From positions 1-30,512 of the IMG/VR virus record IMGVR_UViG_3300008110_000306: 30,512 nt of DNA. The stretch is one strand, 5' to 3'. This document shows, one piece after another, positions 2,461 through 6,476 of this stretch; the first letter of the stretch is position 1; every line of letters begins with the position of its first letter. This DNA is from a virus. The translations under genes and the position numbers were made by a program. The notes beneath the pieces are model-generated. The model was not told the DNA's origin. It made no database searches and saw only the letters and a list, made by a program, of their open reading frames with translations.

Positions 2461-3006
2461 TTATTTAAATGGATTATCCAATGTTGATTCCAAATACTTT
2501 CTAATCTTGCGCACAGAAATAAAAGTTGTTGATTTACTAATTCCTATCTTCTTTGCAACTTCATCTAATGTGTCCTCTGACATCCAATACAATTCAAAAA
2601 TACGGGCTTGTGGCCACATCTTTGTCACTTTTAACTTTTGTAATTCAGACATTACTTCTTCATGTGCCTGTTGCAATTGTAAATCCCATTCGTAATCATA
2701 AGGTATATCTTCTTCTGTATCTGGCATCTCTTCTATTAAGATAGTCTGATTTAATTTCTTTACCTTATTCATAAATCTACTATGTAAAAACTTATTACAA
2801 TAAAATAGATTGTAACTATCACCCCACCATATCTTAGGATTACATTTTAAATGCAAATATTCAAATAATTCACTACAAAGGTCTTCTGCTTCTTCTTGAT
2901 TCTTTGTAATCTTTTTTGCTTCATTAACTAACCAACCATTATGTGTGTTATATAGATTAGTCAATCTTTGATTACATTCCAATTGTAAACTACCTGAGTC
3001 TATCAT
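2461..3006 (-). CDS. Sigma-70/ECF-like RNA polymerase sigma factor
   Basis: The 181-aa protein has the two-domain plan of an extracytoplasmic-type sigma factor. Residues about 15-85 resemble region 2, with an EAEDLCSELFEYL helix that matches the conserved region 2.2 pattern. Residues about 135-173 form a region-4-like helix-turn-helix (TLDEVAKKIGISKSTTFISVRKIRKYLES). A linker rich in acidic residues joins them. Such factors redirect host RNA polymerase to phage promoters. The gene starts 1 nt inside the stop of the preceding gene (TAATG) and is followed by the zinc-ribbon gene and the terminase block. The natural hypothesis is that it drives late genes; the repeated element upstream of virion genes is a candidate target. 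Other HTH regulators with a sigma-like fold are the main alternative. Confidence 0.75.
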   Translation of the reverse strand: MIDSGSLQLECNQRLTNLYNTHNGWLVNEAKKITKNQEEAEDLCSELFEYLHLKCNPKIWWGDSYNLFYCNKFLHSRFMNKVKKLNQTILIEEMPDTEEDIPYDYEWDLQLQQAHEEVMSELQKLKVTKMWPQARIFELYWMSEDTLDEVAKKIGISKSTTFISVRKIRKYLESTLDNPFK

Positions 3007-3693: not shown

Positions 3694-4179
3694 TTATTTA
3701 TATTGAAAGTAATAAGCACCAGCTCTTCTTTGTTTTCCACTTAACACATTATTTAAGTTTGTTACACCAAGTTTTTTCTGAGCTTGTCTTGTTGATTTAA
3801 ATTCACAAATGTATTCTTTAGTTTTGTAATCATAACATAATACAGGTCTACTATTACCAATCTTGTTAGACTTTAATAGTTTTATTCTTTTCTTTGCACC
3901 TGCAATTGCATTCTTAGCTAACTTTTCTTGGTCAGTTTCCAATCCATACTTCTTCTGTATTTTACATTGGAATTGAAACGCTTTCTTTTTGAAGTCTGCT
4001 GTTTTTACATTGAATTTTCTAATAATAACTAATTCAATATCTTTTCTACCTGTGAAATGTCCTTGACTGTTTTTGTGTCTACTTAATCTAATAATAGGGT
4101 TTGAACATTCTCCAACATATAATACATTATTATTGGAATCAATTATTTTGTAGACATAGTGCCACGTTGCCTTTTTCAT
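3694..4179 (-). CDS. GIY-YIG nuclease-like protein with NUMOD-type C-terminus, possibly inactive
   Basis: A 161-aa protein. The GIY-YIG core is visible as YVY (8-10) and YVG (21-23), followed by R31/R34 and H35, which match the conserved Arg and His of the family. The position of the catalytic Glu (E75 in I-TevI) is occupied by Gln71 in FQFQCKIQKK, whereas the paralogue at 4951-5394 has Glu there. Residues about 110-160 resemble a NUMOD1-type DNA-binding module: YDYKTKEYICEFKSTRQAQ, then NVLSGKQRRAGAYYFQY. Such proteins are usually free-standing homing endonucleases of phages. It follows its own promoter and begins the minus-strand transcript toward the terminase. Loss of the Glu suggests a decayed or repurposed binding protein. 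Confidence 0.88.
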   Translation of the reverse strand: MKKATWHYVYKIIDSNNNVLYVGECSNPIIRLSRHKNSQGHFTGRKDIELVIIRKFNVKTADFKKKAFQFQCKIQKKYGLETDQEKLAKNAIAGAKKRIKLLKSNKIGNSRPVLCYDYKTKEYICEFKSTRQAQKKLGVTNLNNVLSGKQRRAGAYYFQYK

Positions 4180-4229
4180 AATTTAGTTTTTGTTAATAAT
4201 TGTAATATAAGATAAATTCCTGATATTAC

Positions 4230-4263
4230 CAAATCTATTTGATATAAATATATAAATTCCAAA
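4230..4263 (-). promoter_or_regulatory. Bacteroidota-type promoter for the GIY-YIG/terminase-side block
   Basis: On the minus strand TTTG (4263-4260) is followed after 22 nt by TAGATTTG (4237-4230), an exact match to the TAnnTTTG -7 element. It lies between the terminator of the putative RNA and the ATG at 4179, with a leader of about 45 nt. Confidence 0.6.
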
Positions 4264-4271
4264 GTAAACGC

Positions 4272-4316
4272 AAAAAAGAACCCTGGTCAGATTTGGCACG
4301 TCACTGACACAGGGTT
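4272..4316 (-). terminator. Rho-independent terminator of the structured RNA
   Basis: On the minus strand AACCCTG (4316-4310) pairs with CAGGGTT (4285-4279). An inner GTCAG/CTGAC helix is separated by one bulged base. A C and six T (4277-4272) follow at once. The plus strand has no T-run after the hairpin, so it acts on the minus strand only. Confidence 0.85.
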
Positions 4317-4842
4317 AAGTATGTTAAATAGGACACTCTATAATAATTAGCTAAACAGCGATAGAGTATTGATTAAGTCCTACTTTATAATAACACACAA
4401 TTTTTTATTTATATTTAATTCTTATAAATTTATTTTTTACTTTATCAGTTTTTATTAGTGCTTTACTTTTTAGAAGTTACGACTTTTTTCTGATATTTCC
4501 AAATTATTCTTAAACTATTTTTAAATTATTTTTTGAACTTAATCACTGCTGCAACTGTTTTCGTTTATGCAGTAGATTTTGTTCAGTGTTGAATACACTT
4601 ATTCCATAAGGTAACTATACTCTTCATAAACTATTTAACTATCCTTTAGTCGTATGTTATGAAGGATTACCCAGAATAAGTAGAAGTTTCATGCAGTGAG
4701 TTTCATCCCAGCGTTGTTTCCACTTTGAACTTTCGTTCAGTAATGATTTCCACATTACATTCCACTTACTTTGATTAAGCACCCATTGTGGGTTTAACAC
4801 ATATCACTTATCATTTCGGATAAGGGTAGTAAGTTACCTATA
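4272..4842 (-). ncRNA. Large structured non-coding RNA, about 570 nt, class unknown
   Basis: No open frame fills this stretch, yet the minus strand is rich in complementary segments. Helices seen directly (plus coordinates): 4764-4770 with 4828-4834, enclosing hairpins 4781-4785/4789-4793 and 4807-4812/4819-4824; 4740-4745/4753-4758; 4726-4730/4735-4739 with a GAAA tetraloop on the minus strand; 4597-4604/4674-4681, 4610-4614/4667-4671 and 4622-4629/4657-4664 stacked as one long arm; 4544-4549/4693-4698 closing that arm; 4329-4341/4361-4382; and a 9-nt long-range match 4370-4378/4537-4545. Loops are purine-rich (GAAA, GGAAAT) only on the minus strand, which indicates the transcribed strand. 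A promoter lies at the 5' end and a terminator at the 3' end. Size and ornate folding recall ROOL/GOLLD RNAs, but no class is assigned. Confidence 0.7.
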
Positions 4843-4845
4843 TCA

Positions 4846-4877
4846 CTAAATATACAAAAACTTTTCAAAACCACCAA
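4846..4877 (-). promoter_or_regulatory. Promoter of the structured RNA (minus strand)
   Basis: TTG (4877-4875) and TATATTTA (4854-4847) are separated by 20 nt, close to the Bacteroidota TTG-N20-TAnnTTTG pattern. The predicted start falls at about 4840, where the first helix of the RNA begins. The -33 part lies in one arm of an ACCAAAT...ATTTGGT inverted repeat shared with the divergent promoter. Confidence 0.5.
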
Positions 4878-4898
4878 ATTCTAAAGAAATTATTTTAT

Positions 4899-4929
4899 TT
4901 GGTAGTTTAAGTTATTTTTCGTATATTGT
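4899..4929 (+). promoter_or_regulatory. Promoter of the plus-strand GIY-YIG gene
   Basis: TTG (4899-4901), 20 nt, then TATATTGT (4922-4929), near the TAnnTTTG consensus. The ATG follows at 4951. The -33 element lies in the second arm of the ACCAAAT (4873-4879) / ATTTGGT (4897-4903) inverted repeat, so the two divergent promoters are mirror images. Confidence 0.5.
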
Positions 4930-4950
4930 ATTATATCAAAATTAAAAGTT

Positions 4951-5394
4951 ATGTTTGTAGTTTATAAGTTAGTCAACTCTAAAAATGAAATTGAATATAT
5001 TGGGCATACTTCAAATATGATAAAAAGATTTAGAGTGCATAAATGTAAAAATGGAAAGTTTCATAATCGTAAAGATATATCTTATGAAATTATAAAATCA
5101 GGATTTCGTAAAAAAGAAAGAGCAATTGATTTTGAATGTAAATTGCAAAAGAAATTAGGTTTTGAAACTGATAGAGAAAAAATTAGTAGAAATATGAAAG
5201 AAGTGCAAAAAATAACTACTGAACAAAAAAGAATACCAATTGCTCAATATGACTTAAATGGTAATTTTATCAAAAAATACCCATCTATTTTAGCAGCTGA
5301 AAAAGAGCTAAAAATTAGGACAATTTGGAATGTCGTAAATGGACACCAAAAATCAACGAAAAACTTCGTATTTATACCCTTAGAAAATCTCTAA
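4951..5394 (+). CDS. GIY-YIG endonuclease with NUMOD-type DNA-binding tail
   Basis: A 147-aa protein with a complete-looking GIY-YIG core: VVY (3-5), YIG (16-18), R26/R28, H30, and Glu62 in DFECKLQKK at the catalytic position. Residues about 95-143 resemble a NUMOD1-type module (IAQYDLNGNFIKKYPS, then IWNVVNGHQKSTKNFVF). It is clearly related to the 3694-4179 protein (shared RKDI, KLQKK/KIQKK, G-x-ETD) but on the opposite strand, with the structured RNA between them. Known from the family: site-specific nicking or cutting that spreads the gene. It starts the plus-strand island, with an A-rich leader AAATTAAAAGTT before the ATG. A 15-bp direct repeat covers its stop codon, and a terminator follows at 5510. 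No interrupted gene is visible, so it is free-standing rather than intron-encoded. Confidence 0.9.
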   Translation: MFVVYKLVNSKNEIEYIGHTSNMIKRFRVHKCKNGKFHNRKDISYEIIKSGFRKKERAIDFECKLQKKLGFETDREKISRNMKEVQKITTEQKRIPIAQYDLNGNFIKKYPSILAAEKELKIRTIWNVVNGHQKSTKNFVFIPLENL

Positions 5395-5684: not shown

Positions 5685-6476
5685 ATGACAAAAGAGATTT
5701 ACATTGGAACTCGTAGTGATTTTAACACAATGGAAAAACTAATAAAAAAACCATTGGGTAGATTAAATCAGGGATTAGCAGAAAGTTTAAGAACCGCTGC
5801 ATTATCAAAAGGTATTAAAAAAACTGAACAAAAAAAGAGATTGGAGTTTTATTCAATAACTGAAATTGATTTGAAAAAACTAAATGATAAAGCAAGTCCT
5901 TTAGTTAAAGTAGATAAAACTAAAATGATTTCTGCTTTAAATAAGGTAAATGGAAAATATACACAAAGAATGGATTACAAAACTGCAGAAAAGTATAAAA
6001 AAGAACTTTCTACTGCTATGAGTAAGTGTATAGAAATTGTAGGTAAAGATAAAAATACTCGTAAAAAACCAAAAACATTTACAGGAACAAATCCATACAA
6101 AGTTGGTGATTGGATTAAATTATATTCAGGTTATAGTATTAAGAGTGTAGTAAGAATATGGAAGATTACACCAAAGGGATACTATATAGAATCTCCAATT
6201 ATGACAAATGTTTATGGTGATAAAATTCCTGTGGTTAGCAACATAAAATATGCAAAAATGCATTTTAAGAATGTAAATGGATATGAACAATTTGGTGAGC
6301 ATGATTTTACAATCCCATTTAAAGGTAATGAAGATAGAATGATATTTGAACAATCAAACATTCTACACCGATTGACAAAAAATGACATGAAATATATCAA
6401 AGAATATGGACATCCATTAAATATAATTAAAGACAATAAAGAAAAAGGATATAACTCACAACTAATGTTTAACTAA
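5685..6476 (+). CDS. Hypothetical protein of the early island, 263 aa
   Basis: The N-terminal half (about 1-130) is Lys-rich and helical (EKLIKKPLGRLNQGLAESL, then KKTEQKKRLEFY), typical of a nucleic-acid-binding or structural phage protein. The region about 138-200 has alternating hydrophobic/aromatic residues (YKVGDWIKLYSGYSIKSVVR, IWKITPKGYYIESP) that suggest a small beta-barrel. No motif of a known enzyme is seen. It is the first and longest gene of the plus-strand set and shares a 22-nt leader with the next gene, differing at one base. Early expression is inferred from its strand and its promoter motif; the function is unknown. Confidence 0.8.
   Translation: MTKEIYIGTRSDFNTMEKLIKKPLGRLNQGLAESLRTAALSKGIKKTEQKKRLEFYSITEIDLKKLNDKASPLVKVDKTKMISALNKVNGKYTQRMDYKTAEKYKKELSTAMSKCIEIVGKDKNTRKKPKTFTGTNPYKVGDWIKLYSGYSIKSVVRIWKITPKGYYIESPIMTNVYGDKIPVVSNIKYAKMHFKNVNGYEQFGEHDFTIPFKGNEDRMIFEQSNILHRLTKNDMKYIKEYGHPLNIIKDNKEKGYNSQLMFN

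Follow-up and report, generated by a model that had tools for sequence, protein, structure and literature searches.

A mosaic phage RNA with a terminator loop complementary to the start region of the neighboring gene, in most loci a homing endonuclease

The C4 RNA of phages P1 and P7, the target of which is ant, is encoded beside its target. The sar RNA overlaps its target region, and its pairing concerns the start region of ant. C4 is a structured phage antisense RNA, the loops of which are complementary to the ribosome-binding region in its target, and sar of phage P22, of 68/69 nt, inhibits the translation product of the ant mRNA by pairing with it (PMC12197685). Among phage RNAs linked to homing endonuclease genes, CfrI is found in cyanophage S-PM2 (PMC2984593), and GOLLD combines a constant 3′ part with a variable 5′ part (PMC12286853).

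The RNA described here is, like C4, a structured phage RNA with a loop complementary to an initiation region and with its target adjacent. Unlike C4, to which it has neither sequence nor Rfam similarity, its target is usually a homing endonuclease, the loop involved is that of the terminator and is predicted to pair with the AUG region (probably in Bacteroidota), there is a single bulged hairpin, and the 5′ modules are exchanged. In contrast to sar, the RNA gene lies adjacent to the target, mostly on the same strand, and the complementarity comprises ca. 6 to 12 nucleotides. The link to a homing endonuclease gene is shared with CfrI, which is, however, a cis-antisense RNA of ca. 225 nt opposite to the endonuclease gene and psbA. 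With ROOL and GOLLD it has in common that it is a large structured noncoding phage RNA, constant at the 3′ end and variable at the 5′ end as in GOLLD, but it matches neither covariance model, its conserved core is much smaller, and it is not part of a tRNA island, a single tRNA-Gln lying ca. 2.4 kb off.

Scanning the window (the whole stretch of DNA analyzed, equal to the 30,512-base viral record) against Rfam 15 returned no family at threshold except this tRNA-Gln (1770 to 1841), and at an E value of ≤10 the RNA region gave four chance-level matches. Neither at threshold nor at E ≤ 10 did the covariance search find ROOL, GOLLD, OLE, or group I/II introns, so that the membership in a ROOL/GOLLD class suggested by the original prediction did not hold up; GOLLD was also without a match in ten relatives, and C4 when all 4,227 Rfam families were scanned. 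The C4-like trait itself, a loop complementary to the initiation region of the adjacent mRNA, was found in the tests on 33 loci detailed below. A collection of cultured phages had no BLAST match to the RNA region, and no exact 22-mer of the 5′ domain (module A) and no terminase relative were present in species-genome contigs. Apparently, this is an undescribed RNA family in uncultured phages.

The locus and its transcription signals

Terminase, portal, and tail genes were identified in the window, the terminase having 36% identity to the best phage record. On the minus strand, positions 4262 to 4878 form a unit without a gene and with a promoter and a terminator of its own, which would give an RNA of ca. 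580 nt (Table 1). The gene-free gap, the promoter-like site, and the strong minus-strand terminator of the original prediction were all recovered: no open reading frame (ORF) of ≥50 amino acids (aa) exists within 4180 to 4950, the longest M-initiated ORF inside the RNA has 32 aa, and both signals are present on the minus strand. The terminator reads AACCCTG-GTCAG...CTGAC-CAGGGTT followed by T6; it was missed by an automatic scan, presumably because its loop is larger than the limit of 8 set there, and nearly all relatives have an equivalent at the same position.

Table 1. Coordinates of the features at the RNA locus (window positions)
Feature	Position	Strand	Basis or detail
GIY-YIG homing endonuclease, NUMOD-type C terminus, 161 aa	3694-4179	minus	Pfam GIY-YIG, 5.6e-07
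Predicted mRNA target GGCAACGUGGC, endonuclease codons 3 to 7	4161-4171	minus	duplexfold
Putative downstream-operon promoter, TTTGGTAATATCAGGAATTTATCTTATATTAC	4202-4233	minus	pattern match; relatives arranged alike
Constant 3′ part (bulged hairpin, then terminator hairpin)	4272-4385	minus	
Intrinsic terminator hairpin and U tract	4272-4316	minus	sequence; fold −16.5 kcal/mol
Predicted antisense loop GACGUGCCAAAUC in terminator hairpin	4290-4302	minus	best of 56 ORF starts (start region −15 to +30)
Conserved bulged hairpin	4326-4385	minus	covariance model R1, covariation
Hairpin stem 1	4377-4385 with 4326-4334	minus	
Hairpin bulge, 9 nt, UUAAUCAAU	4368-4376	minus	
Hairpin stem 2	4361-4367 with 4335-4341	minus	
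Predicted second, internal promoter, TTTGGAAATATCAGAAAAAAGTCGTAACTTC	4473-4503	minus	block conserved
Module A, structured 5′ domain	4605-4842	minus	RNAalifold, 5 homologues
Module A helix UUCAUAA (4657-4663)/UUAUGAA (4623-4629)	4623-4663	minus	compensatory U-A/C-G at 4659/4627
Module A hairpin, invariant AAGGA loop	4637-4651	minus	covarying stem
Putative RNA promoter, Bacteroidota primary-sigma type	4847-4878	minus	TTTGG-N19-TATATTTA
Putative divergent promoter of GIY-YIG gene 4951-5394	4898-4927	plus	pattern match
GIY-YIG gene	4951-5394	plus	Pfam GIY-YIG, 2.3e-08

The window contains five copies of the pattern TTTGG-N18-21-TATATT, compared with 0.28 expected; three of these lie at the RNA locus, where by pattern match they would serve the RNA, the divergent plus-strand gene, and the downstream operon. 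The same pattern is also found upstream of other 5′ modules. A −7 consensus TAnnTTTG has been established for Flavobacterium (PMC9723704), and the promoter type, which is that of Bacteroidota, points to this phylum as the probable host. From these signals, we infer that the unit is transcribed. Within 4847 to 4927, two of the putative promoters point away from each other on either side of a palindrome-like ACTACCAAAT...ATTTGGTGGT, which would allow shared regulation of the RNA and the plus-strand GIY-YIG gene.

The predicted internal promoter would probably yield a shorter 3′ RNA of ca. 200 nt. Its block is kept in 20 stretches of viral contigs with differing 5′ modules, and not universally, since TTTGG is changed to TTAGG in L089/L090. 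In another relative (L221:4800-5168, minus strand), the block stands directly before a 60-aa ORF (MKNMYKILTKEKTKEGYVWRH...) located between it and the constant hairpin, and the short transcript can thus be an mRNA.

A constant 3′ domain under exchangeable 5′ modules

The minus strand folds at −137.9 kcal/mol (z = −4.56, 0/20 shuffles as low), compared with z = −3.17 for the plus strand. Folded by segments, module A has a z-score of −3.0 and the 3′ part one of −4.3, with an A-rich middle of 144 nt without structure between them. Homologues were sought among 80 IMG/VR relatives gathered via the terminase of the window, the RNA regions of which were compared by BLAST; the 3′ part was widely shared, and the 5′ part was found in few.

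Across relatives, the 3′ domain is made of a stem of 8 to 9 bp, a bulge of 9 to 12 nt (mostly UUAAUNAAU), a 7-bp stem, a loop, and then the terminator. The covariance model built for the hairpin (R1) scored 69.5 bits in the window (E value 1.8e-11) and gave 48 matches in the loci, one per contig and each with E < 2e-4, the next one being at E of ca. 1. In 24 sequences, 14 of the 16 hairpin pairs have changed on both sides; doubly changed cells number 103 versus 31 in shuffled alignments, and the covariation score is 0.735 versus 0.207 (slid controls, ≤0.16). Some of the loci had been selected by a script for which pairing was a requirement, so that the percentage paired is inflated and loci keeping the stem are favored; an nhmmer set collected without this rule (L011, L015, L021, L027, L033, L054, L080, and L081) also pairs. 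A pattern scan for the bulge returned mostly unrelated contigs. A protein or chaperone probably docks at the bulge, which is conserved in sequence.

Upstream of this constant domain, the modules are exchanged: depending on the locus, our computational comparison found module A, B, C, or D or a protein gene there. Module B is present in L009, L011, L033, L046, and about 12 more loci; module C in L008, L015, and L054; and module D in L080, with a diverged relative elsewhere in L044. A protein gene takes this place in L017, L021, L042, L044, L055, L065, L081, and L218. Finally, in L031 and L061, on the strand opposite to the terminase, a TAnnTTTG promoter immediately precedes the hairpin, which there would be a stand-alone RNA of ca. 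100 nt; L032, L038, and L039 have the same orientation.

Some features of these modules can be described. Module B (L009:293-461, L011:449-617, and 14 more loci) begins with a covarying GAAA-tetraloop hairpin (UAGG-GAAA-CCUA, UCC-GAAA-GGA, or UAC-GAAA-GUA) and carries GAGGGGGGNNAGGGGGGUGUAAG, striking for an AT-rich phage; its alignment gave no clear covarying fold. Module C, of ca. 380 nt, is 92.5% identical between L015:130-509 and L008:4824-5185. Module D (L080:83-422) is 64% identical to its relative at L044:600-930, which has its own TTGG-N-TATATTTG promoter and precedes a protein gene. Modules B, C, and D produced nothing near a family threshold when compared with Rfam at permissive E values.

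Module A forms an island of 84 to 99% identity between flanks of ca. 35 to 75%, and in the full comparison the five sequences had >90% identity to the window there. The limits of the island are roughly those of the 15-bp helix closing the domain (4828 to 4842 with 4605 to 4621). Its RNAalifold consensus from five homologues has 86 pairs, with 98.4% of the cells paired. Four pairs are doubly changed yet still pairing, where 1.1 would be expected from shuffles (2/500) and slid structures give 0 to 1, in a set (the window, L027, L029, L217, and L219) in which few positions vary. The hairpin with the invariant AAGGA loop has three stem versions in the five sequences (GACUA/UAGUU, GGAUA/UAUCU, and GAGUA/UACUU). 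Module A was also considered as a protein gene and rejected, as every frame is closed and indels are of 1 to 2 nt.

Promoter, terminator, z-score, homologues, and covariation across phage loci (14/16 hairpin pairs and four pairs of module A) agree on the autonomous structured minus-strand RNA that had been predicted. What had been taken for one large ornate RNA is indeed structured and conserved, but combines, as a mosaic, a 5′ domain that is exchanged between loci with a constant 3′ domain, which in other loci forms the end of protein-coding or other transcripts or follows a promoter of its own. The four helices named in the original prediction are all present and pair in the five module A sequences, with the exception of one end pair (4622/4664, C-G in the window only and A/G in the other sequences). 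The helix to which it belongs (4622-4629/4657-4664) is backed by a compensatory change (UUCAUAA/UUAUGAA versus UUCACAA/UUGUGAA). The remaining three (4597-4604/4674-4681, 4610-4614/4667-4671, and 4764-4770/4828-4834) do pair, but without compensatory change and in competition with the consensus fold and its closing helix. The 9-nt match 4370-4378/4537-4545, read as a possible pseudoknot, exists and lies on the conserved bulge, but its partner is not retained in type-B relatives (read by eye), and we rejected it as a conserved feature.

Complementarity of the terminator loop and the neighboring gene start

In most loci, the downstream gene encodes a GIY-YIG or HNH endonuclease, that of the window being a GIY-YIG of another type. 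The zinc-finger GIY-YIG type corresponds to a PHROG homing endonuclease and has invariant Y, G, R, H, and E residues. Among the loci with coupled changes described below, L081 and L095 have HNH-like enzymes and others GIY-YIG enzymes. Pfam HNH_3 was detected in L015 and L088 and weakly in L080 and L095. Further along the operon behind the RNA, the window encodes a sigma-70-region-2-like protein (2461 to 3006, minus strand; Pfam 5.6e-4, below the cutoff). It may be a phage sigma factor, and similar proteins are found in relatives, for example, in L061 and L031.

The best functional clue, absent from the original prediction, is the complementarity between the terminator loop and the start of this neighboring gene. 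Among relatives, this complementarity takes in the start codon itself. Many have the loop GUGCCAU, and the gene just downstream often starts with AUGGCAC; the start AUGACA goes with a loop GUCAU (L044, L055, L095, and L199), and AUGGCU with AGCCAU in L042, but not in L021. The longest matches include 12 nt in L015 (AUCGCAAUGGCA) and 11 nt in L011.

With the start codon excluded, 183 of 297 positions (−4 to −1 and +3 to +7) pair. When starts were swapped between loci 5,000 times, the mean was 154.5 and no swap exceeded 178; swaps of this kind leave shared descent in. Gene starts or loops were set by hand in L008, L027, L054, L089, L091, and L155. Duplex energy over the 33 loci averaged −11.84 kcal/mol for matched and −8.48 kcal/mol for swapped combinations, and −11.30 versus −8.22 after removal of near-duplicates, with 0/5,000 swaps as low in either case. 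The bulge, used as a control, gave a much weaker signal (−2.69 versus −2.28; 127/5,000 swaps), for which reason it was discarded as a second antisense site. Among all ORF starts of the contig, the adjacent gene was the top target in 18 of the 33 loci (1.4 expected), with a mean relative rank of 0.085; it came just 7th to 10th in L017, L021, L054, L095, and L155, and no clear best target was found in L061 and L031.

Loop and start co-vary in these comparisons. The pair at +3 changes from G-C to A-U on both sides in L044, L055, L065, L087, L095, and L199; that at −1 from A-U to G-C in L011, L078, L081, L085, and L097; and that at −2 from A-U to C-G in L015, L044, L055, and L199, with further coupled changes at +4 in L155 and at +5 in L042. 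Coupled changes at several positions, together with the different endonuclease families, make several independent readjustments likely. In L008 (ca. 6062 to 6099), an HNH-type gene now adjoins the RNA, and immediately ahead of the ATG of the second gene stands TTGGCAC in place of the ATGGCAC of L046: the match to the loop is kept and that AUG is lost.

In the window, the match is located at codons 3 to 7 and not at the AUG, as a predicted duplex of 9 bp with one bulge and one mismatch (GGCA-A-CGU-G-GC; −13.9 kcal/mol). Using a narrow start region (−12 to +14), 17 of 29 other starts match as well and the match is 23rd of 33 in the duplex test; with −15 to +30, a region chosen after this failure and then applied to all loci, the adjacent gene is first of 56 ORF starts. 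In L117, L038, L032, and L039, RNA and operon are divergently oriented, and even so the best or nearly best match is to the first gene or the endonuclease, which implies action in trans.

Proposed mechanism and alternative explanations

Our preferred reading, held with moderate confidence, is that of a C4/sar-type antisense RNA blocking translation of the adjacent gene. The constant 3′ domain, with its bulged hairpin and terminator, would be the antisense RNA, and its terminator loop would pair with the translation initiation region of the gene that heads the neighboring operon (in most phages a homing endonuclease gene). Shine-Dalgarno sequences are missing in Flavobacterium, where initiation tends to be reduced by structure around the start codon (PMC6847099), so that several base pairs over the AUG should repress; masking of the start codon would then have repression of translation as its expected outcome. 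As a separate transcription unit that keeps its match in the divergent group, the RNA would act in trans. In the window, the 3′ domain would be joined to the separately folding module A; the exchangeable structured RNAs predicted upstream of the 3′ domain number at least four, module A being one. Given the endonucleases downstream in most loci, silencing of a selfish homing endonuclease is the leading reading.

Its main rival is early-late control of the first gene of the operon, by which the antisense RNA would delay translation of the gene that comes first in the structural operon, whatever it encodes, and the endonucleases would merely tend to occupy the slot. Both in the window and in relatives, the element does lie where the terminase/structural operon begins, and the sigma-70-region-2-like gene follows in the operon. 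The divergent first gene of L117 and L032 encodes no endonuclease (in L032 it is of DUF6291 type) and starts with ATGGCAC, being the top target in L117. Nevertheless, we regard such a switch as unlikely, since the endonuclease is the target in most loci, also in L038, where it and not the first gene is the best target, and each operon has its own promoter past the terminator.

We give still less credit to the complementarity being a by-product of ancestry, with loop and start traveling together as a homing cassette and the hairpin acting as a mere terminator or stabilizer of mRNA 3′ ends. Such an origin would fit the near identity of the module A island in phages that are otherwise diverged, a pattern that gene conversion would produce, and the 3′-UTR-like position of the 3′ domain after protein genes (L017, L021, L042, L044, L055, L065, and L081). 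However, complementarity is kept across the unrelated GIY-YIG and HNH families, the loop changes with the start (L081 versus L095), an unpaired terminator loop needs no conserved sequence, and a separate promoter serves the RNA in L031 and L061.

A large RNA forming a scaffold or cage as in ROOL/GOLLD, in which module A would do the work, suggested by a phage RNA of ca. 580 nt with constant 3′ and variable 5′ regions, is very improbable given the lack of an Rfam match at E ≤ 10, the unstructured middle of 144 nt, and a constant part of just ca. 115 nt that stands alone in relatives. Equally remote is a DNA-level element (origin, cos, or pac site), which the gene-free, hairpin-rich sequence close to the terminase operon might recall, but against which speak the G-U pairs, the better structure of one strand, the asymmetric bulge with the terminator on the same strand, and the occurrence on either strand relative to the terminase.

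Returning to the antisense reading, it could be extended to a plug-in platform, in which a constant antisense domain has its loop retuned for each captured endonuclease while the exchangeable heads A to D have functions of their own, for example, against host defense or rival phages; this extension is tentative, and we hold it as a possibility on the doubtful side. None of these structured, exchangeable heads, including module A, corresponds to a known RNA family.

Antisense RNAs directed at start regions have so far come from a few model phages. Here, the pairing between RNA and target seems to have been remade several times as the target gene was replaced, making the regulation readable from sequence alone, and this suggests that phages restrain selfish homing endonucleases by means of an adjacent RNA.
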